Below, one piece after another: positions 16,196-56,184 of a DNA stretch of 64,000 nt (positions are counted from its first letter, which is position 1; every line of letters begins with the position of its first letter). The position numbers were made by a program, and so were the translations under genes. The notes under the pieces are model-generated. The model was not told the DNA's origin. It ran no database searches and saw nothing but the letters and a program-made list of their open reading frames with translations. The stretch lies in the NCBI GenBank assembly GCA_016194975.1, contig JACQAM010000023.1:62001-126000 (forward strand), read 5' to 3'. The DNA comes from Bacteroidota bacterium (GTDB lineage: Bacteria; Bacteroidota; Bacteroidia; Palsa-965).

Positions 16196-16275
16196 GCCCA
16201 GGTGGCGAAATTGGTAGACGCACCATCTTGAGGGGGTGGCGAGCAATCGTAGGAGTTCGAATCTCCTCCTGGGCA
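16196..16275 (+). tRNA. tRNA-Leu (anticodon GAG)
   Basis: The acceptor stem GCCCAGG pairs with CCTGGGC, followed by discriminator A. The D-arm GGCGAAATTGGTAGACGC is typical of leucine tRNAs. The anticodon stem CCATC/GGTGG closes a TTGAGGG loop with GAG as anticodon. A short variable arm (CGAGCAATCG) and the T-arm AGGAGTTCGAATCTCCT complete the fold. The CCA end is not encoded. Confidence 0.95.
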
Positions 16276-16350
16276 CTTTTGAATTCTGAATTTTCAATGC
16301 TGAGTTTTGAATATAATTCAGAATTCAAATTTCAGAATTCAGAATTTCCT
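16276..16350. repeat. Palindromic GAATTCTGAATT-type spacer between tRNA genes
   Basis: The 75-base spacer is made of overlapping copies and inversions of GAATTCTGAATT and AATTCAGAATTC. It can fold on itself and may act in processing of the tandem tRNA precursor, or simply be a member of the word-type repeats of this genome. Confidence 0.5.
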
Positions 16351-16434
16351 GCCCACGTGGCGAAATTGGTAAACGTTGCGGTCTCAGAAGCCGTTGGAGT
16401 TATATCCTTGGGAGTTCGAGTCTCCCCGTGGGCA
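16351..16434 (+). tRNA. tRNA-Leu (anticodon CAG)
   Basis: The acceptor stem GCCCACG pairs with CGTGGGC, with discriminator A. The D-arm GGCGAAATTGGTAAACG matches the first tRNA. The anticodon loop CTCAGAA gives CAG, which reads CTG leucine codons. A long variable arm (TTGGAGTTATATCCTTG region) and T-arm GGGAGTTCGAGTCTCCC are present. It is close in sequence to the first copy, so the pair probably arose by tandem duplication with anticodon change. Confidence 0.95.
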
Positions 16435-16440
16435 CTTTCA

Positions 16441-46555: not shown

Positions 46556-47911
46556 ATGTCACAGCTTGAAGTCGTCATGCCGAAAATGGGCGAAAGTGTT
46601 GCCGAAGCCACCATCATCAAATGGCTCAAGAATGAAGGCGATAAAGTTGCGCTGGATGAACCGATCCTGGAAATTGCAACTGACAAAGTCGATTCGGAAA
46701 TTCCTTCACCATTCGAAGGTGTGCTTTCGAAAAAAATGTGCAAAGAAGGTGATGTGGTGCAGGTCGGAAAACCGGTAGCGATGATCTCTTCTGATGTTGC
46801 CGCAGAAAAAAGCAATGTGGTGATCAGTAAAGAAGTTACTGCTCTGAAGAAAGAAGAAATTCCTGTTACAACCCTCACAAAAGAAACACCAGTCACTGAA
46901 ATTTCAGAAGTTGTTGCTGTCAAAACAGGAGCATCTTCCCGTTTCTATTCTCCGCTGGTAAAAAATATTGCGAAGCACGAAGGAATTTCTATCGCCGAAC
47001 TTGAATCCATTGCAGGCACCGGCGCACACGGGCGAGTGACCAAGAACGACATTCTCAATTACGTTCCCAATAAAGGAAAAACATATTCGGTCGCTGACAA
47101 TACAAAAACTGAAACGCCTGTTCTTTCCAATGGAAACGGCCATCATTCGAAATTCGAAACGATCACGCAGAAGATCACTCCACCGAATGTAACGATGATG
47201 AACGGCGACGAGATCGTGGAAATGGACCGGATGCGAAAACTCATTGCCGAACACATGGTGATGAGTAAACATGTTTCGCCGCATGTCACTTCTTTCGTGG
47301 AGGCAGATGTAACGAATCTCGTGCGGTGGCGTGATCGTGTGAAAAATGATTTTGAAAAACGGGAGAAAGAAAAACTCACCTACACGCCGATCTTCGTGGA
47401 AGCGGTTGTAAAAGCGATAAAAGATTTTCCGATGATCAACGTTTCACTCGACGGAACAAAGATCATCGTGAGAAAAAATATCAATATCGGAATGGCGGCT
47501 GCTTTGCCATCGGGAAATCTCATTGTGCCCGTGATAAAAAATGCCGACCGCATGAATCTTTTCGGCCTCTGTGCTTCGGTGAATGATCTTGCATCGCGTG
47601 CACGCGCAGGAAAACTGAATCCCGATGACATTGCCGGAGGAACGTACACAATCTCCAATGTGGGAACATTCGGCAATTTAATGGGAACTCCCATCATCAA
47701 TCAACCGCAGGTGGCCATTCTCGCTCTTGGTTCCATTGTGAAAAAACCTGCTGTTATAGAAACTCCTTCCGGCGATACGATCGGTATCCGCCACATGATG
47801 TTCCTTTCCCATTCTTATGATCATCGCGTGGTGGATGGTGCGCTGGGCGGAATGTTTGTAAGGCGAGTTGCCGATTATCTCGAAAACTGGGATGTGAACA
47901 GGGAGATCTGA
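46556..47911 (+). CDS. Dihydrolipoamide acyltransferase (E2) of a 2-oxo acid dehydrogenase complex
   Basis: A 451-residue E2 subunit. The lipoyl domain carries the lysine in EIATDKVDSEIPSPF; the peripheral-subunit-binding domain is FYSPLVKNIAKHEGISIAEL to RVTKNDILNYV; the catalytic domain ends with LSHSYDHRVVDGALGG, which holds the catalytic His and Asp. It should transfer the acyl group from E1-bound lipoate to CoA. Whether it belongs to branched-chain, 2-oxoglutarate or pyruvate dehydrogenase cannot be told; the sequence looks most like the branched-chain type. E1 and E3 genes are not in the window. Confidence 0.93.
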   Translation: MSQLEVVMPKMGESVAEATIIKWLKNEGDKVALDEPILEIATDKVDSEIPSPFEGVLSKKMCKEGDVVQVGKPVAMISSDVAAEKSNVVISKEVTALKKEEIPVTTLTKETPVTEISEVVAVKTGASSRFYSPLVKNIAKHEGISIAELESIAGTGAHGRVTKNDILNYVPNKGKTYSVADNTKTETPVLSNGNGHHSKFETITQKITPPNVTMMNGDEIVEMDRMRKLIAEHMVMSKHVSPHVTSFVEADVTNLVRWRDRVKNDFEKREKEKLTYTPIFVEAVVKAIKDFPMINVSLDGTKIIVRKNINIGMAAALPSGNLIVPVIKNADRMNLFGLCASVNDLASRARAGKLNPDDIAGGTYTISNVGTFGNLMGTPIINQPQVAILALGSIVKKPAVIETPSGDTIGIRHMMFLSHSYDHRVVDGALGGMFVRRVADYLENWDVNREI

Positions 47912-47944: not shown

Positions 47945-49987
47945 ATGAAAAAAATTTCCCTCTACACACTGTTAGTTTTTTCTTTACTGCTCATTTTTAT
48001 TTCTGCAGGAATTCCAAAAGCTGCCCGCGAGAAGATCGTTCGCGGCGATGAATATTTTGTGAATGATGATTATGATAAAGCACTTCCGCTTTACCTCGAA
48101 GCATACAAGATAGATCCAACCAACTCCAATCTCTCTTTCAAGATCGGCGTGTGCTGCCTGAATATTCCTTCTGAAAAATCAAAAGCCGAGAATTATCTTT
48201 TCGCTGCGGCATCGAATGTTTCTGAACAATACAAAGAAGGAAGCATCAAGGAAAGAAGAGCGCCGGTTACCACGTATTATTATTTTGCAGAAGCGCTGCA
48301 CCTCAACGGGAAGTTCGACGATGCATTAGCCAATTTTGAAAAATGCCGGGGATACATGAATACCGCCGATTCAAATGCAGTACGGGATCTTGATCTGCGT
48401 GAAGCATGGTGCCGTAACGGAAAAACACTCGAAGCTTCTCCTGTGAATTTCAAAGTGGAAAATCTCGGTGCAAATATTAATTCTCCTTACCCCGATTATT
48501 CGCCTGTGATCTCCGCTGATGAGCGCACACTTATTTTCACCACGCGCAGGCCCGAAAATACAGGAGGATTGAAAGACGATCGCGATGGAATGTATTTCGA
48601 AGATATTTACATCAGCACAAAAAATGATGACGGTACCTGGGGAAAAGCAATTCCTGTTGGTAATAATATCAATACTCCGGGACACGATGCATCGGTAGGA
48701 ATAAGCGCTGACGGACAACAGATCTTCATTTACAAAGATGATGCTGGTGATGGAAATATTTACACGAGTAATCTCGTCGGTTCAAACTGGATGCAGCCGC
48801 AGAAACTGAATGATAATGTGAACAGCAAATCGTGGGAACCAAGTGCAAGTGTTACGCCTGATGGAACTGTATTGTACTTCACTTCTGATCGCGCAGGCGG
48901 ATTCGGTGGAAGGGACATCTGGAAATCGCTGCGGCTTCCCAATGGAGAATGGGGCAAGCCCATCAATTGCGGACCCACTATCAATTCAAGGTACGATGAA
49001 GATGCGCCGGAAATTCTTGCTGACGGACAAACACTTTATTTCGCTTCTAATGGCCCTGCTTCTATGGGAGGATTCGATATTTTCTCATCCGTGATGGTGC
49101 AGGATAGCGGTTGGAGAAAACCGGTGAACATCGGTTATCCCGTGAATACCACTGACGACGATTTGTTTTTTTTCCCGACACCTGATGATAAACATGCTTT
49201 CTATTCTTCAGCAAACAATGCGAATGGAATGGGAGAAAAAGATATTTATTTTCTCACCTTCCCGGAAAAACAGGAATCAAAACTCACCGTGTTGCAGGGA
49301 ATGATCACGAGTATTTATGGAGGTGTTCCTGAAAATACACAGATCACGGTTACCGATGTAGAGACCGGCGACATCATGGGAATTTACACGCCGAATTCAC
49401 TGACGGGACGCTACGTGATCATTCTTCCTTCAGGCAAAAATTACAGCATCACTTACGAAGCAACAGATTATCTCTACCAGTCAGACAACATGAACATCGG
49501 CGACAGTTCTTCATTTGAAGTTATCGATCGCCCGGTAGAACTCGAGCCATTGAAAGTGGGACAAAAACTTGTTGTGCGGAATATTTTCTTCGACTCCGGG
49601 AAATCGCAATTAAAAGCTGATTCGAAATCTGAATTGGATAAACTTGTTGATCTTATGCTTAAACATCCGATGATCATTGTGGAAATTTCCGGTCACACGG
49701 ACGCAAGCGGAAGTGATGAGTTGAATCAGAAACTTTCTGAACAGCGCGCTCAGTCTGTGGCCGATTACCTCGCTGCAAAAGGAGTTGACAAGTCAAGATT
49801 GCGTACAAAAGGTTATGGCGAATCAAAACCGATTGCGATCAATTACAACAAAGACGGTTCTGCAAATAAAAACGGAATGGCGCTCAACCGCAGATTCGAA
49901 TTCACGATTCTCAGTGTTGATGGAAAATACCAGGATGTAGTGGAGCCAATAAATGTGCCTGATAAACTGAAGAACAAAGGCCAGTGA
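47945..49987 (+). CDS. TPR-PD40-OmpA family envelope protein, paralogue 1
   Basis: A 680-residue protein: signal peptide, N-terminal TPR-like segment (about 25-165), PD40 beta propeller (about 170-440; VLYFTSDRAGGFGGRDIW and TLYFASNGPASMGGFDIFSS), a carboxypeptidase-regulatory-like beta domain (about 450-540), and an OmpA domain (FFDSGKSQLKADSKSELDKL, GHTDASGSDELNQKLSEQRA, LRTKGYGESKP) that should bind peptidoglycan. The architecture resembles PorE, a T9SS-associated peptidoglycan anchor, but the match is by layout only. It is the first of four tandem paralogues and starts 33 bases after the acyltransferase gene. Confidence 0.9.
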   Translation: MKKISLYTLLVFSLLLIFISAGIPKAAREKIVRGDEYFVNDDYDKALPLYLEAYKIDPTNSNLSFKIGVCCLNIPSEKSKAENYLFAAASNVSEQYKEGSIKERRAPVTTYYYFAEALHLNGKFDDALANFEKCRGYMNTADSNAVRDLDLREAWCRNGKTLEASPVNFKVENLGANINSPYPDYSPVISADERTLIFTTRRPENTGGLKDDRDGMYFEDIYISTKNDDGTWGKAIPVGNNINTPGHDASVGISADGQQIFIYKDDAGDGNIYTSNLVGSNWMQPQKLNDNVNSKSWEPSASVTPDGTVLYFTSDRAGGFGGRDIWKSLRLPNGEWGKPINCGPTINSRYDEDAPEILADGQTLYFASNGPASMGGFDIFSSVMVQDSGWRKPVNIGYPVNTTDDDLFFFPTPDDKHAFYSSANNANGMGEKDIYFLTFPEKQESKLTVLQGMITSIYGGVPENTQITVTDVETGDIMGIYTPNSLTGRYVIILPSGKNYSITYEATDYLYQSDNMNIGDSSSFEVIDRPVELEPLKVGQKLVVRNIFFDSGKSQLKADSKSELDKLVDLMLKHPMIIVEISGHTDASGSDELNQKLSEQRAQSVADYLAAKGVDKSRLRTKGYGESKPIAINYNKDGSANKNGMALNRRFEFTILSVDGKYQDVVEPINVPDKLKNKGQ

Positions 49988-50029
49988 TGAATCGTTCCGT
50001 GTAAAAGCGGTTTCCTCACCGTATTTTGT

Positions 50030-50037
50030 TATTTTTG
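50030..50037 (+). promoter_or_regulatory. TATTTTTG promoter -7 box for paralogue 2
   Basis: A perfect TAnnTTTG match 22 bases before the ATG at 50060. Confidence 0.5.
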
Positions 50038-50059
50038 AATAGACCCATTCCCCCTAGTC

Positions 50060-52246
50060 ATGAAAAAGAAACGGTTTCTGCCGCTCTTTTTTCTTTTCTC
50101 CTTTTGCATTTTGTTCGCGCTTCCCGTAAATGGCAAGAGCAGCAATTCGTTTTCATTGAAAGAAAAAAAGATCTTCCGCAAAGCAGAAACGCATTTTCTG
50201 TATTCTGAATATGATGATGCGATCCCTCTCTATATGGTACTGCTCAGTTCGCATAGCGATGATCTGGAGTTGAATTACGAAGCAGGGATCTCTTATTTCT
50301 ATTCCACCACTTCCCGACCGATGAGTGTGAAGTATCTCGAAAAAGCAATCGGGCTTTCTGTAAAAGACACTTCGCTCGATCTGGTCTTTCACATGGCCAG
50401 AGCTTACCAGTGTGTGAATGATTTTACTGATGCTGAAAAATTCTACATCATTTTCAGACATGAAACAGGAAATGATCTCACTCGATCTTATCTCGATGAA
50501 TTCATTGCACAATGTGAAACGGGAAAAAAATACTGGGCTGCTCCGGGAAATGTGCAGATCAATTCTCTCGGCCCGAATGTGAATTCCATTTATCCCGATT
50601 ATGCGCCGGTGCTCACGCGCGATCATTCTAAACTTCTTTTCACTTCCAAACGGGAAGGAACTACCGGCGGAAAAAAAGATGACGATGGTTTTTATTATGA
50701 AGATGTGTATATGGCGCGCTCGGGTGCTAACTGGAATGGAGCGCAACGCATCGACACTTCATTTCACCAGCCGAAATTCTACGACATGAAACTTTTTTTC
50801 GGAAAAGCGGAAAATATTTCACAGATCAACACTTCGCGGCATGATGCTTCCATTGCACTTTCTCCGGATGAAACTTCACTTTACATTTTCCGTTCCGATG
50901 ATATCTGGAAAGCCGATCTTAAAGATGATCAGTGGCAATCGCCGGTGCGCATCAGTCGTTCCATAGATGCATCTCGGTCATACGAGCCGAGCGTTTTTAT
51001 TACGCACGACGGCAACATGCTTTATTTCATCAGTGACCGTAAAGGCGGAGTGGGTGGAAAAGATATCTGGCAATGCACAAAAAATTCAAATGGAGATTGG
51101 GGCGAACCGGTGAATCTCGGTGCAGAAATAAACAGCGATGTAGATGAAGATTCTCCTTTTGTGACGGATGACGGCAATACACTTTATTTTTCTTCGCAGG
51201 GACATTCGGGCATGGGTGGCTATGACGTTTTCAAAAGTGTGAAAGATGCCAATGGAAAATGGTCGACGCCGGAAAATCTTGGCGCGCCGGTGAATAATGG
51301 CGATGATGATATTTTTTATTATCCCGACCAGAACGGGAATCGCGCGTGGTATGCAACGCTCAACCGCAATGGAGAAGGCAGTCTTGATATTTATGAGATC
51401 GATTATTTACCGGAATTTGCACCGCTGGCCAAAATACATCTGAAAGAAACAACTACAGCTATGGAAGATGTGAGCATTTCGCTTAGGGGAATTAATGGGC
51501 AAAAAGACACATCGCTTACTTTCAGCAATAATGCCGATGCAATATTCCCATTCGTTAATAATTCCATTTACCTCATTACCGTTAGTGCAAATGGTTTTGG
51601 CAAGTTCACTGATACGTTGAAACTGGAAAGTGATTCGCCTTACAATTTCATTTTCCAGGAACTGACGCTCACCAAATATATTTCCGATACGGGAACAAAA
51701 GAATTGCTGGTGCTCGCGACGAATTATACTGATATTGACAAAAATGCCATGACAGATTCGGCGATGGAATATTCTGCACTTCCCGCCTCGCGGGAAAAAT
51801 TCATTTCTTCTGTTAAGTCTGCACAGGAATTACAATCCTATACCACTTCTATTCTCAGCGATGTTCATTCTTACACGAAACAGCAAGCTGACACTTCCGT
51901 ACTCGCTTCCGTTTATTTCGATTTCGATCATGCAGATCTGCGCTTGGATATGCATTCGCGCGCGGAAGCCATTTTCGACTGGATGAAAAAAAATCCGGAG
52001 AGTTCCATCCTGCTTGCCGGAAATACCGATGACAAAGGAGCGGATAATTACAACATAGATCTTTCACGCGAGCGCGCTTCCGCAGTAAGGGATTTTCTTG
52101 TATCGAAAGGGATCGACAGAAAACGAGTAACGGTTGTTGCAAATGGAGAAAAAGATCCGGTTGCCCCTAATGAAAATAAAGACGGAAACGATAATCCATC
52201 CGGAAGAGCGTTGAACAGGCGTGTTGACATTCGGAAAACACGTTAA
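50060..52246 (+). CDS. TPR-PD40-OmpA family envelope protein, paralogue 2
   Basis: A 728-residue protein with signal peptide (PLFFLFSFCILFALPVNG), TPR-like region, PD40 propeller (MLYFISDRKGGVGGKDIWQ, TLYFSSQGHSGMGGYDVFKS), a beta-domain with no clear carboxypeptidase-regulatory pattern, and a full OmpA domain at about 610-725 (YFDFDHADLRLDMHSRAEAI, AGNTDDKGADNYNIDLSRER, VVANGEKDPVAPNENKDG). An insert of about 20 residues (FYDMKLFFGKAENISQINTS) sits within its propeller. It is transcribed from its own promoter, 72 bases after paralogue 1. Confidence 0.9.
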   Translation: MKKKRFLPLFFLFSFCILFALPVNGKSSNSFSLKEKKIFRKAETHFLYSEYDDAIPLYMVLLSSHSDDLELNYEAGISYFYSTTSRPMSVKYLEKAIGLSVKDTSLDLVFHMARAYQCVNDFTDAEKFYIIFRHETGNDLTRSYLDEFIAQCETGKKYWAAPGNVQINSLGPNVNSIYPDYAPVLTRDHSKLLFTSKREGTTGGKKDDDGFYYEDVYMARSGANWNGAQRIDTSFHQPKFYDMKLFFGKAENISQINTSRHDASIALSPDETSLYIFRSDDIWKADLKDDQWQSPVRISRSIDASRSYEPSVFITHDGNMLYFISDRKGGVGGKDIWQCTKNSNGDWGEPVNLGAEINSDVDEDSPFVTDDGNTLYFSSQGHSGMGGYDVFKSVKDANGKWSTPENLGAPVNNGDDDIFYYPDQNGNRAWYATLNRNGEGSLDIYEIDYLPEFAPLAKIHLKETTTAMEDVSISLRGINGQKDTSLTFSNNADAIFPFVNNSIYLITVSANGFGKFTDTLKLESDSPYNFIFQELTLTKYISDTGTKELLVLATNYTDIDKNAMTDSAMEYSALPASREKFISSVKSAQELQSYTTSILSDVHSYTKQQADTSVLASVYFDFDHADLRLDMHSRAEAIFDWMKKNPESSILLAGNTDDKGADNYNIDLSRERASAVRDFLVSKGIDRKRVTVVANGEKDPVAPNENKDGNDNPSGRALNRRVDIRKTR

Positions 52247-52284
52247 TAATTACAATTTTTGGAAGGAAAATCGGTATAAACGAT

Positions 52285-52292
52285 TAATTTTG
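52285..52292 (+). promoter_or_regulatory. TAATTTTG promoter -7 box for paralogue 3
   Basis: A perfect TAnnTTTG match 39 bases before the ATG at 52332. Confidence 0.5.
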
Positions 52293-52331
52293 CCGGACTA
52301 ACCTATCGCTTACCCGGACCAATTCAATTTT

Positions 52332-54458
52332 ATGCTTGTGAAGCAGGCCAAAAATTCCTTTTCCCCCATAAACCAGAAGAGAATAACAGGCGCCTTTCGA
52401 GGGTTATGCCTGCTCTTGTGCTTTCTGATAATGGGTGAAAAAATTGCTGCTCAGATAAATCCGATCCCCGGGAATTACCGCGACAATTTTCTCCAGGGAA
52501 ATCAACTCATCGAAGAAAAAAATTACCCGGTGGCGCTCCAGTTTTTCTCGGAAGCCTACAAAGTGGATTCAACAAACGCAAACATCAAATACAAAATGGG
52601 TGTTTGTTATCTCTATTCTTATTCTGAAAAAAAGAAAGCACTTCCCTACCTGCGTGAAGCGGTTAAAGATGTTTCCCGGAATTACGATCCGTATGAACCA
52701 AAAGTGAAAAAAGCGCCGGAGAATGCGATGTATTATCTTGCTATCGCCTATCACTACAATTACCAGTTCGATTCTGCTATCATGTATTTCGAATCGTGGA
52801 AAGCAATTCTGGGTGATCGCGATCCCGAAGCATTGAAAGATATTAATCAACGTATCAGTTGGGCGCAGAATGCAAAAGAATTCATGGCCAATCCCAACCC
52901 CGTTACGATTACAAATATGGGAGACAGCATCAATGGCCCGAACGCCGATTACAGCCCGGTAGTTTCCATTGACGAAAACACACTCATTTTCACCTCACGG
53001 CGTTATGGCGAAAGGGGAATTGACGGGGAATTCTATGAAGATATTTTTATTTCGGAAAAAAAACCGGATGGTACTTGGACCGAAGCTCGTCCAATCTCGC
53101 AATACATTAACACACCAACCAACGATGCTTCTGTTTCTCTTTCTTCGGATGGAAATACGCTTTTCATTTATCGTGATGATAATGGCGGAGATATTTATCA
53201 AACCACATTTATGAATGGCGACTGGATGGCTCCTATTCCACTCGACAATAACATAAATACGAAGTACTGGGAAACGCACGCTTGTCTTTCGGCAGATGGA
53301 AACACACTTTATTTTGTGAGCGATCGCCCGGGTGGATTTGGCGGAAGAGATATTTATCGCTGTGTAAAACTCGGAAACGGGCAATGGTCGAAAGCGCTTA
53401 ATCTCGGACCTACTGTGAATACTGACCAGGATGAAGATGCGCCTTTCATTCACCCGGATCAGAAAACACTTTTCTTTTCTTCGAAGGGACACAAGTCCAT
53501 GGGCGGTTTCGATATTTTCTTCACTTCAAAAGATGATTCAGATCGCTGGGTGGAGCCGGTAAATTTGCGTTCGCCAATCAACACACCTGATGATGATATT
53601 TTTTACGTAACATCTCCCGATGGAAAAAGAGCTTATTTTTCTTCTGTGCGTGATGGTGGTTACGGAGAGAAAGATATTTACATGGCTACGCAAATAACGC
53701 CAACCGTGCAGGGACTCACACTTCTGAAAGGAAGAATTTACAATTCCGATGGTTCACCGCTAACACAGCGGGTTGAGATCGATGTGACCAATTCAAATAC
53801 AGGTGATATTTCCGGTCAGTACAAACCAAATCCTAATGGAAAATTTACCATCATTCTTCCTGCCGGTGCTACTTACCAGATTTCTTACATGGTGAATGAT
53901 AAAGAATTATCCAACGAGATCATTGATGTTCCGGCAGGATCGGAATTTGAAGTGATCGACCGCGCTATCAATCTTCGTGATCTTGTCATTGGTAAATTGC
54001 CAATCGATGTTCCCGTTGATTCTTTAAACGATTCGCTGCATCATAAAAAACCGAAAGACTGGAAAGGAGAACTCACCCAAACGCATAACCTGAATTTCTC
54101 GATGTTCTTTAAGTATAACATCAGTGAGATCGATCCGAATGATGCCGATTTTAAAACTTTCATTGACAGTTGTGTTGCTCACATCAATAAATTCGGAGAA
54201 ATAAATTTCCGCATTACTGCTGCCGCTTCACAGGTTCCAACAAAAAAATTCAGTTCAAATAAAGATCTTGCAACAGACCGCGCAACAAAAACGCAGGCCG
54301 TCATTGACAAAGCACTCAAAGCAAAAGGTGTGGACATGAGTAAAGTTCATTGGGTAAAAGTGAATTCCTATGTGCTGGGCCCGCAATACAAATCCGATTT
54401 CCAGAAGAACAAAGCGCTCTATGAAAAATACCAGTATGTGAAAGTGCGTGGCTATTAA
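52332..54458 (+). CDS. TPR-PD40 envelope protein, paralogue 3, with degenerate OmpA-like C-terminus
   Basis: A 708-residue protein with signal region (FRGLCLLLCFLIMGEKIAAQ), TPR-like segment, PD40 propeller (TLYFVSDRPGGFGGRDIYRC, TLFFSSKGHKSMGGFDIFFT), a regulatory-like beta domain (LTLLKGRIYNSDGSPLTQRV), and a C-terminal 150 residues that follow the OmpA order (FSMFFKYNISEIDPNDADF, ITAAASQVPTKKFSSNKDLA, ATDRATKTQAVI) but have lost the peptidoglycan-binding GHTD and NxxLSxxRA residues. It probably no longer grips diaminopimelate. It follows its own promoter and ends at a strong terminator. Confidence 0.88.
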   Translation: MLVKQAKNSFSPINQKRITGAFRGLCLLLCFLIMGEKIAAQINPIPGNYRDNFLQGNQLIEEKNYPVALQFFSEAYKVDSTNANIKYKMGVCYLYSYSEKKKALPYLREAVKDVSRNYDPYEPKVKKAPENAMYYLAIAYHYNYQFDSAIMYFESWKAILGDRDPEALKDINQRISWAQNAKEFMANPNPVTITNMGDSINGPNADYSPVVSIDENTLIFTSRRYGERGIDGEFYEDIFISEKKPDGTWTEARPISQYINTPTNDASVSLSSDGNTLFIYRDDNGGDIYQTTFMNGDWMAPIPLDNNINTKYWETHACLSADGNTLYFVSDRPGGFGGRDIYRCVKLGNGQWSKALNLGPTVNTDQDEDAPFIHPDQKTLFFSSKGHKSMGGFDIFFTSKDDSDRWVEPVNLRSPINTPDDDIFYVTSPDGKRAYFSSVRDGGYGEKDIYMATQITPTVQGLTLLKGRIYNSDGSPLTQRVEIDVTNSNTGDISGQYKPNPNGKFTIILPAGATYQISYMVNDKELSNEIIDVPAGSEFEVIDRAINLRDLVIGKLPIDVPVDSLNDSLHHKKPKDWKGELTQTHNLNFSMFFKYNISEIDPNDADFKTFIDSCVAHINKFGEINFRITAAASQVPTKKFSSNKDLATDRATKTQAVIDKALKAKGVDMSKVHWVKVNSYVLGPQYKSDFQKNKALYEKYQYVKVRGY

Positions 54459-54493
54459 GAGGCTGTTTAAATTTCATCCTTCTGTTTTGTTAT

Positions 54494-54520
54494 GCGCTTT
54501 CCAACGGAGCGCTTTTTTTT
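54494..54520 (+). terminator. Rho-independent terminator after paralogue 3
   Basis: The stem GCGCT/AGCGC (with further CC/GG pairing inside the loop) is followed by eight T. Confidence 0.85.
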
Positions 54521-54557
54521 ATTCCCATACCGGTTATGCCAAGACAAAGAGAATTGC

Positions 54558-54565
54558 TAATTTTG
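54558..54565 (+). promoter_or_regulatory. TAATTTTG promoter -7 box for paralogue 4
   Basis: A perfect TAnnTTTG match 62 bases before the GTG at 54628. Confidence 0.45.
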
Positions 54566-54627
54566 AGTAAAGCCCTCCATTTTGGAGCGGATTTTGCAAA
54601 CACACTTACAGAACAACCTCTACTCTC

Positions 54628-56184
54628 GTGAAAACCGTGAAGTTGCTTTGTGCAGCCCTGCTGCTTTGGGTTTCCGTTCCGGTCATCGCTCAACCGTCTG
54701 CCGGAATTCCCGATCCTGATGCTGCGGCAGAACATTACTCTCATGGAAATTATCTGATGGCGCTCCCGATCTATCTCGCGTGCCTGAAAAGAGAACCGAA
54801 CAATTATGAATATAATTTCCGAATCGGTGTTTGCTATATTGAAACGAACGGACATAAAAAAGAAGCGATAAAATATTTAGAAGCAGCTGAAAAAAATCCG
54901 AAAGCAGATAATGACACCTGGCTTTACCTCGGGCAAGCCTACCAGTATGACCTGAAGTTTGATGATGCGATCAAGCAGTTTGAAACTTACAAACTGAAAG
55001 CCGACAAAGAAGGAAAAACAAATGCCGATCATTACATTGCACAATGCAAAAATGGAAAAATCCTTGTTGCAAATCCACTCGATGTTAATTTCCAGAATCT
55101 CGGCAAAGAAGTGAATTCAGAATATCCCGACTATTATCCATTCGTTACTTCCGATGAATCGATGCTCATCTTTACTTCCAGAAGAAAAGGAAATGTGGGC
55201 GCTTCACAAGTGGAAATGGATGGATATTATGCTTCTGATATCTGGTACACGAAATCTGTGAATGGAGTTTTCACGAAAGCAAAAGGCGCCGGCCCGGGAG
55301 TGAATGGAAATTATGATGAACAATGTACCGGCCTTTCTGCTGATGGAAAATTAATGACCGTTTATGTCGATGATATTTCTACGGCTGGAGATATTTACCA
55401 GTCGACTTACAAAAATTCTTTTGCTAAAATTGAAAAACTTCCTGAAGTGGTGAATTCCGGATTTGAAACTGCCGCATCTTATTCTCCTGATGGCAATATG
55501 ATATTTTTTGCAAGCAAACGCGACGACGGACAAGGTGGAACAGATATTTATGTGTGCAAAAAACTTCCGGGAAATTTCGGTTGGGGGCAGGCGCTTAACA
55601 TCACTGCGATCAATACTCCTTACAACGAAGATTTTCCGTTCATGGCGCCCGATGGAAAAACACTTTACTTTTCTTCCGAAGGGCACAACAGCATGGGCGG
55701 CTACGATCTTTTTTATACGATCTGGAATGAAGAAGATAATACATGGTCCACTCCGCGAAATGTGGGTTACCCGATCAGCGGCCCGGGAAACGATTACACC
55801 ATCAGTTACACCGAGAATAATCGCGTGGCATACATCACCAGTGATCGCGAAGGCGGGCAAGGCGATATGGATATATGGCGTGTAGTGTTCAATGAAGTGC
55901 AACAGAATTCATTCACTCTCGTAACAGGCACTGTTCACCTTCCTGACTCCACCATTAATCTTGCCGATCTCACGATCTATCTTACTTTGAGTTCTACGAA
56001 TGAAGATTACGGCAGATACAATTTCAATCAGACTACAAAAAAATATGTTATGGCTTTACCTCCCGGAAAATATATCATGACCCTGGATGTAGCCGGATGC
56101 AAACCCTACATAGAAACGATCAACGTTTTCGACATTGGCCCGCAGGGAGAAATGAATAAGGATATTTTATTGGTGAAGCAGTGA
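54628..56184 (+). CDS. TPR-PD40 envelope protein, paralogue 4, lacking OmpA domain
   Basis: A 518-residue protein from GTG 54628, with a signal peptide (LLCAALLLWVSVPVIAQ), TPR-like segment, PD40 propeller (MIFFASKRDDGQGGTDIYVC, TLYFSSEGHNSMGGYDLFYT) and a C-terminal regulatory-like beta domain (GTVHLPDSTINLADLTIYLT) at which it simply ends. It therefore has the sensing or binding parts of its neighbours without a peptidoglycan anchor. It has its own promoter after the terminator of paralogue 3. Role unknown; it may act as a soluble or lipid-free partner of the others. Confidence 0.88.
   Translation: MKTVKLLCAALLLWVSVPVIAQPSAGIPDPDAAAEHYSHGNYLMALPIYLACLKREPNNYEYNFRIGVCYIETNGHKKEAIKYLEAAEKNPKADNDTWLYLGQAYQYDLKFDDAIKQFETYKLKADKEGKTNADHYIAQCKNGKILVANPLDVNFQNLGKEVNSEYPDYYPFVTSDESMLIFTSRRKGNVGASQVEMDGYYASDIWYTKSVNGVFTKAKGAGPGVNGNYDEQCTGLSADGKLMTVYVDDISTAGDIYQSTYKNSFAKIEKLPEVVNSGFETAASYSPDGNMIFFASKRDDGQGGTDIYVCKKLPGNFGWGQALNITAINTPYNEDFPFMAPDGKTLYFSSEGHNSMGGYDLFYTIWNEEDNTWSTPRNVGYPISGPGNDYTISYTENNRVAYITSDREGGQGDMDIWRVVFNEVQQNSFTLVTGTVHLPDSTINLADLTIYLTLSSTNEDYGRYNFNQTTKKYVMALPPGKYIMTLDVAGCKPYIETINVFDIGPQGEMNKDILLVKQ

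Follow-up and report, generated by a model that had tools for sequence, protein, structure and literature searches.

A long-conserved OmpA-like variant end in a tandem set of four TPR-PD40 paralogues of a Bacteroidota bacterium

The window analysed here is a stretch of 64,000 nucleotides from a Bacteroidota bacterium of the Palsa-965 lineage (contig JACQAM010000023.1 of assembly GCA_016194975.1, positions 62,001 to 126,000 of the forward strand), and positions given without a locus handle are those of the window. Directly 3' of an E2 acyltransferase gene it carries four tandem open reading frames (ORFs) on the plus strand (47945–56184), P1 to P4, which encode TPR-PD40 proteins that share one body and differ in their ends. 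A canonical OmpA domain closes both P1 and P2, P4 has no anchor, and P3 ends in a variant domain, predicted to fold like OmpA, in which the Asp that contacts the diaminopimelate (DAP) of peptidoglycan is replaced by Ser and the ligand Asn and Arg are retained. This end of P3 is a long-conserved altered grip, real and old, and not a broken one. We think it probable that the four proteins form a PorE-like periplasmic scaffold set in which the P3 variant binds a carboxylate ligand other than meso-diaminopimelate (m-DAP). Proteins like PorE and CHU_0125 are believed to fasten the Bacteroidota outer membrane to the wall, and their numerous paralogues lack an explanation; one fixed change at the DAP site of a conserved OmpA-like domain offers a direct test of differing ligands, and P1, P3 and P4 set a bound, an altered and a free scaffold side by side as a natural experiment. 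Among the titles and abstracts listed in searches of the open-access literature no description of this locus, or of an Asp-to-Ser OmpA variant in Bacteroidota, was found.

That the cluster consists of four tandem TPR-PD40 paralogues, as a preliminary description of this DNA had proposed, is borne out by the PD40 repeats that Pfam finds in each protein (E 4e-20, 9e-14, 4e-26 and 4e-28 for P1 to P4) and by the alignment of all four over one TPR-propeller body. No TPR was detected in P2 by Pfam at E 0.1, and the CRD was weak in P1 (E 0.057) and not matched by Pfam in P2 to P4. By eye all four have a signal-peptide-like N-terminus, a simple pattern search found no lipobox in any of them, and we infer that they are periplasmic. 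The genome has 19 TPR-PD40 genes, counted from 21 matches. The OmpA domains of P1 and P2 are intact, as had been described, both scoring above the gathering score of PF00691 (Table 1) and having all three DAP-contacting residues, Asp, Asn and Arg. The P. gingivalis protein PorE grips the stem peptide through three side chains, Asp576, Asn584 and Arg591 (PMC7192894), and the wall-contact Asp of A. baumannii OmpA, D268, is reported to be important in vivo (PMC6572160). By Pfam and by reading of the triads, the canonical peptidoglycan site is restricted to P1 and P2, which agrees with the preliminary description. PF00691 has no match in P3 or P4, and in the P3 domain none even at E 1, and a Pfam search alone would label P3 anchorless; when three variant domains were scanned with this model, one scored 13.5. 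P4 does lack the domain, as had been claimed, and its chain ends about 95 residues beyond the propeller.

At the P3 site Ser stands in place of the Asp of the GHTD motif, extra residues before the Asn make a longer, VPT-containing loop, and the motif that follows reads NKDLATDRA, with its Asn and Arg invariant across eight aligned orthologues. The preliminary description had P3 losing both the GHTD and the NxxLSxxRA contacts; it was right about the Asp and wrong about the second motif, which is present in the form NxxL[A/S]xxRA. Among 133 distinct TPR-PD40 C-terminal domains, from which duplicates and domains shorter than 90 residues had been dropped, Ser-Asn-Arg was found in all 39 domains of the P3 class and Asp-Asn-Arg in 93 of the 94 canonical ones, the remaining one having Asp-Asp-Arg. 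These 39 are what was kept of 46 variant rows, the seven dropped being six repeats of relatives' genes and one contig-cut fragment. When 36 more domains were taken from 20 loci in other genomes, none of these domains repeating any of the first 133, the triad was Ser-Asn-Arg in 22/22 variant and Asp-Asn-Arg in 14/14 canonical domains, so that the combined counts are 61/61 distinct variant and 107/108 canonical domains. In a domain tree built from 62 chosen domains of the 133 and the 36 new ones, all 46 variant rows of that tree have Ser at the Asp position and the variant domains form one clade, with support of 100/100 on 140 columns; the tool warned that columns were few, branches long and the bootstrap not yet settled. 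The P3 domain is 81, 76 and 72% identical to that of its three nearest relatives, compared to 65, 73 and 70% for the C-terminus of P1.

When the P3 domain was modelled with AlphaFold2 from 38 aligned sequences, the model reached a pLDDT of 91.0 and a pTM of 0.82 and predicts an OmpA-like fold. Its top Foldseek match by E-value was PorE (6TOP; E 3.3e-6, TM-score 0.52, root-mean-square deviation (rmsd) 5.0), with domains of Pal and OmpA ranking next. VIA-align superposed it on the DAP-bound OmpA domain of Acinetobacter (3td4) with Z 11.1 and rmsd 2.9 over 114 residues, and on 6TOP with Z 9.2. At the level of profiles, hhalign joined the P3 variant domain to canonical OmpA rows with 96.5% probability over 77 columns, and a search of the PDB gave 12 weak matches, the best with E 0.0026, bearing type names of OmpA, Pal and MotB. 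A normal DAP site in P3, which would have spoken against the preliminary description, is there by half: the predicted fold is normal and Asn and Arg are in place, and the Asp is replaced. A model of P3 residues 40-708 (669 residues; pLDDT 84.5) has, in order, seven N-terminal helices, the strands of a propeller, a beta-rich part at the position of the CRD, a linker of low confidence (residues 511-545), and the C-terminal domain.

A profile of the P3 domain matched 117 of 396 genomes of the class, or about 114 when three weak matches (G240, G341 and G358; 23-27 bits) that resemble ordinary OmpA domains are set aside. A phylum-wide draw matched 21 of 198 genomes, strongly only in G000 and G069 and at 20-30 bits in the others; this draw, in which the number of genomes from outside the class is unstated, held no strong match outside the class. 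Within the family 8 of 12 genomes matched, that of the window included, and the four without a match are 59-84% complete. The order E2-P1-(P2)-P3-P4 was found in six of seven family relatives, two of them with an inserted gene; on the contig of G002 an unrelated ORF lies at the contig start just before P3, and P3-P4 stand apart from P1. Six relatives have E2, P1, P3 and P4 complete in one stretch; two of them also have P2 and four do not, and P2 is the most divergent member (37-40% identity). The E2 gene lies in the same stretch at 20 of 29 variant loci from named records, the 29 including the six family relatives, and at 13 of the 20 variant loci from other genomes. Four of these 20 (L150, L156, L160 and L165, from four families) have no TPR-PD40 gene other than the variant one, which stands between E2 and an exonuclease-like gene; at L160, the one of the four checked by Pfam, the flanks encode RecR, a glycosyltransferase, an exonuclease and an FAA hydrolase. 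Thus, in a sample chosen for having it, no member of the locus is as constant as the P3 type, and the anchored and anchorless neighbours vary by lineage. The spacer between propeller and variant domain has a wide range of lengths across species, and in the 1294-residue P3 relative at L160:9806-13690 many CRD-like immunoglobulin-fold matches lie between the two.

The preliminary description saw in the four paralogues a graded loss of the anchor; read as decay, this would make P3 a relic on its way to the state of P4. That Pfam misses the OmpA domain in P3 fits such a decay, and two anchorless genes, L095_9071 and L155_10113, sit among variant-ended bodies as if their domain had been lost; a third, L007, stands apart. 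P4 itself belongs to a separate clade (support 100) that holds 19 of the 22 anchorless rows. The P3 domain is monophyletic with invariant residues, it occurs in many families and is the sole TPR-PD40 end at the four loci named above, and it is the intact P2 that comes and goes. The clade, its spread over about 114 of 396 genomes and the sole-gene loci argue for a conserved alternative module and not for a graded loss; decay is already contradicted for P3, and as an account of the set it seems to us scarcely credible. P3 as a pseudogene was also considered, and the invariant triad, the single clade and the identities among orthologues ruled it out.

The bodies tell a different history from the ends. 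When the variant label is mapped on a tree of the TPR-propeller bodies, it has to change 10 times, no fewer than seven of these across well-supported branches, and in G052 the bodies of two neighbours, one variant-ended and the other OmpA-ended, are sisters (support 99). Because the variant domains are one clade and the bodies conflict with it, either ends were exchanged or bodies were homogenised between neighbours; the discord between ends and bodies looks as though neighbours had swapped modules. In G023 a 269-residue ORF with a signal-peptide-like start (L151:9735-10544, minus strand) joins DUF1573 (E 1.6e-26) to the variant domain, and this occurrence outside the TPR-PD40 body supports a free-standing module. 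We therefore put forward, tentatively and as less than probable, that OmpA-like domains with the Ser-Asn-Arg ('SNR') module make up a ligand-binding class of their own, new and widespread within a single class of Bacteroidota, which takes a periplasmic ligand other than m-DAP and serves as an interchangeable end. If so, an SNR end passed between scaffold bodies, and once found on a DUF1573 protein, would allow the retargeting of one and the same envelope scaffold. A third wall-binding type of end on the TPR-PD40 scaffold may be SPOR: in a second close pair of the same genome, on contig C21, L004:1360-3417 is a TPR-PD40 gene with a SPOR-like end (E 0.023, below the cut-off) near the anchorless L006:1399-2973, and L003 and L008 have clearer SPOR ends.

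These observations lead to the question of what the altered site holds. In the arrangement that we consider probable, the ends of P1 and P2 would bind the DAP stem peptide of peptidoglycan, and the TPR-propeller part, judging from PorE, would bind envelope partners. The pocket of P3, with Arg and Asn kept, Ser in place of the acidic residue that holds the amine, and the longer VPT-containing loop, would not hold standard m-DAP and most likely takes a different carboxylate: the stem peptide at another part or in another form, or else a partner protein's tail. P4, having no module, could be a scaffold held by its partners. The alternative is that the P3 domain still binds m-DAP peptidoglycan, with the Ser and the longer loop replacing the Asp, in which case three of the four proteins would hold the wall. 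The Asn and the Arg, which make two of the three side-chain contacts to the stem peptide in PorE (PMC7192894), are invariant in the variant domains, and the superposition on DAP-bound OmpA (Z 11.1) points the same way. What speaks for a changed ligand is that the Asp is replaced in 61/61 variant domains and is kept by the canonical paralogues at the same loci, and that loss of the Asp accompanies lost DAP binding in Tp0624 of Treponema pallidum (PMC5104382). Tp0624 has the OmpA fold, its DAP-site Arg is kept and the Asp is replaced in all fifteen homologues that its authors list; no DAP binding by it was seen in soaks or by isothermal titration calorimetry, and its authors speculate on D-glutamate as the ligand (PMC5104382). 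Unlike P3, where Asp is changed to Ser and the Asn is kept, Tp0624 has Asp to Ala and Asn to Glu/Gln, and it has no TPR-propeller body; its setting also differs, in that most spirochetes are without DAP whereas here canonical OmpA domains stand beside the variant. The genome encodes these canonical domains together with a MurE with DNPR, a motif that we take to be the mark of DAP ligases, and so a lack of DAP or an unusual wall is not a likely reason for the variant. A different carboxylate ligand for P3 is favoured over retained DAP binding, which we regard as somewhat unlikely.

Several points weigh against this preference for an exchanged end with a new ligand. The Ser could still hydrogen-bond the amine of DAP. 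Variant domains were recruited by a profile of eight P3 orthologues, which favours look-alikes, and recruitment is therefore not independent of likeness to P3. In three far relatives the P3 domain is less conserved than the C-terminus of P1, with identities of 54, 40 and 39% compared to 62, 59 and 52%. The body tree was a quick one of 105 rows from selected loci with Shimodaira-Hasegawa-like approximate likelihood-ratio (SH-aLRT) support only, and gene conversion of the bodies would yield the same tree conflict as an exchange of modules.

The nearest known counterpart is PorE, which in the current model binds outer-membrane partners (PorP; PMC9143113) with its body and holds the wall with its end. 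The order TPR, propeller, CRD and OmpA appears to be the same, PorE is the first Foldseek match of the P3 domain, and its Asp-Asn-Arg contacts are kept in P1 and P2; of the PorE domain set, Pfam finds TPR, PD40 and OmpA in P1, whereas the OmpA domain of P3 is recognised by fold only and P4 has none. The differences are the Ser for Asp in P3, the absence of a lipobox by simple pattern search, the distance from PorP, and scores against the PorE family NF052230 of 301, 202, 188 and 147 bits, where the cut-off of 600 is not reached. The preliminary description had suggested a possible link of the cluster to the type IX secretion system (T9SS) or gliding, and one may picture a T9SS or gliding module of PorE paralogues, with P1 and P2 gripping the wall and serving as docking sites for P3 and P4. 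The PorE-like build fits this picture, as do SprA, present in this genome and in 40/40 variant-bearing genomes, and the one gene inserted in the cluster of G006 and of G003, whose product in both relatives carries a T9SS sorting tail (PF18962). SprA is, however, also present in 37/40 genomes without the variant, and we rejected its presence as proof of a T9SS role since it does not discriminate; this sample took 40 variant genomes, one per genus, from the 45 first listed, and 40 genomes unmatched in the class search, the weakly matching G240, G341 and G358 not being among them. The two inserts are alike only in and around the tail region, and at least 150 T9SS-tail matches in each of three genomes make them unsurprising, leaving a weak, after-the-fact hint. 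Better matches to the PorE model lie elsewhere in the genome, the best among the ten other TPR-PD40 genes scanned, out of fifteen (L006, L007, L008, L010 and L014 were left out), being L017 and L019 with 531 and 493 bits. None of the genome's 20 PorP matches over the cut-off is near the cluster, the only one on the contig lying at a distance of about 121 kb; by contrast, L008, L015, L016 and L018, four TPR-PD40 genes from elsewhere in the genome, each adjoin one. The T9SS or gliding link is thus weak at best, and we consider such a module unlikely. L017:640-2973 and L019:673-2775 are a neighbouring pair on contig C24 with the top PorE scores, both below 600, and as even L017 misses it, this cut-off may be strict for the lineage. 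No link to BamP was found in passages of the F. johnsoniae paper on the β-barrel assembly machinery (PMC12611786).

CHU_0125 of Cytophaga hutchinsonii, which is reported to maintain outer-membrane integrity (PMC5891637), has the same TPR-PD40-OmpA build, and its family NF053607 is the best NCBIfam match of all four proteins (302, 263, 211 and 179 bits). It differs in that the cut-off of 620 is not reached, P1 having 302 of it, and other genes of the same genome score higher, up to 467 and 463. By analogy, outer-membrane integrity would be the default general role for the cluster.

PD40 is the repeat type of TolB, and a TolB-Pal-like pair, with the anchorless P4 propeller sitting on the OmpA domain of either P1 or P2, is another way to read the set. 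As in TolB and Pal, a PD40 propeller and an OmpA-like domain occur together, and anchorless bodies accompany anchored ones at many loci; here, unlike there, both lie in one chain. No protein of this genome passes the cut-off for TolB, and only 2 of 14 control genomes have one that does. P3 and P4 themselves score 18.1 and 19.2 bits against TIGR02800, where the cut-off is 343. TolB binds Pal through an interface of its own, and at four of the 20 loci the P3 type stands alone without P4, so that we find this pairing quite improbable.

Table 1. Features of the P1-P4 cluster and its surroundings (window positions unless a locus is named)
Feature	Position	Strand	Evidence or remark
E2 acyltransferase (2-oxo acid dehydrogenase complex)	46556..47911	+	Pfam PF00198 E 9e-80, PF00364, PF02817
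P1, TPR-PD40-OmpA scaffold, 680 aa	47945..49987	+	
P1 canonical OmpA domain, GHTD and NQKLSEQRA, Asp-Asn-Arg	49586..49861	+	PF00691 E 6.9e-23, 81.3 bits
TAnnTTTG promoter-like element of P2, 30 bp upstream	50030..50037	+	
P2, PD40-OmpA paralogue, 728 aa, diverges more than its neighbours	50060..52246	+	
P2 canonical OmpA domain, GNTD and NIDLSRERA, Asp-Asn-Arg	51914..52189	+	PF00691 E 8.4e-17, 61.8 bits
TAnnTTTG promoter-like element of P3, 47 bp upstream	52285..52292	+	
P3, TPR-PD40 body and variant OmpA-like C-terminal domain ('SNR' type), 708 aa	52332..54458	+	
P3 variant OmpA-like domain	54045..54455	+	AlphaFold2 fold, OmpA-like PDB matches, hhalign
Ser codon replacing DAP-binding Asp	54228..54230	+	S56 of orthologue alignment, invariant
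Retained ligand Asn codon	54258..54260	+	N66 of orthologue alignment, invariant
Retained ligand Arg codon	54279..54281	+	R73 of orthologue alignment, invariant
Terminator-like hairpin and T run between P3 and P4, ahead of P4 element	54494..54512	+	
TAnnTTTG promoter-like element of P4, 70 bp upstream	54558..54565	+	
P4, TPR-PD40 scaffold without C-terminal anchor, GTG start, 518 aa	54628..56184	+	
T9SS-tail inserts in two relatives	L030:11879-12802 and L032:6824-7981		PF18962

Each paralogue had been described as having its own TAnnTTTG promoter, and this holds for P2, P3 and P4 (Table 1); no such element was found within 250 bp before P1, which starts 33 bp after E2 and is probably read from the E2 transcript. 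Within the cluster an upstream TTG at the searched spacing accompanies the P3 element only. The motif occurs in 4.1% of random 170-bp stretches of the window and within 170 bp upstream of 10 of 48 ORFs of at least 150 residues, so that three out of four is above chance, yet the motif is common before genes here. Sigma-70-like sites were not enriched, with 15 found compared to a shuffle mean of 19.2. Elsewhere in the window, at 16196-16435, two tRNA-Leu genes lie side by side, one with the anticodon GAG and the other with CAG.

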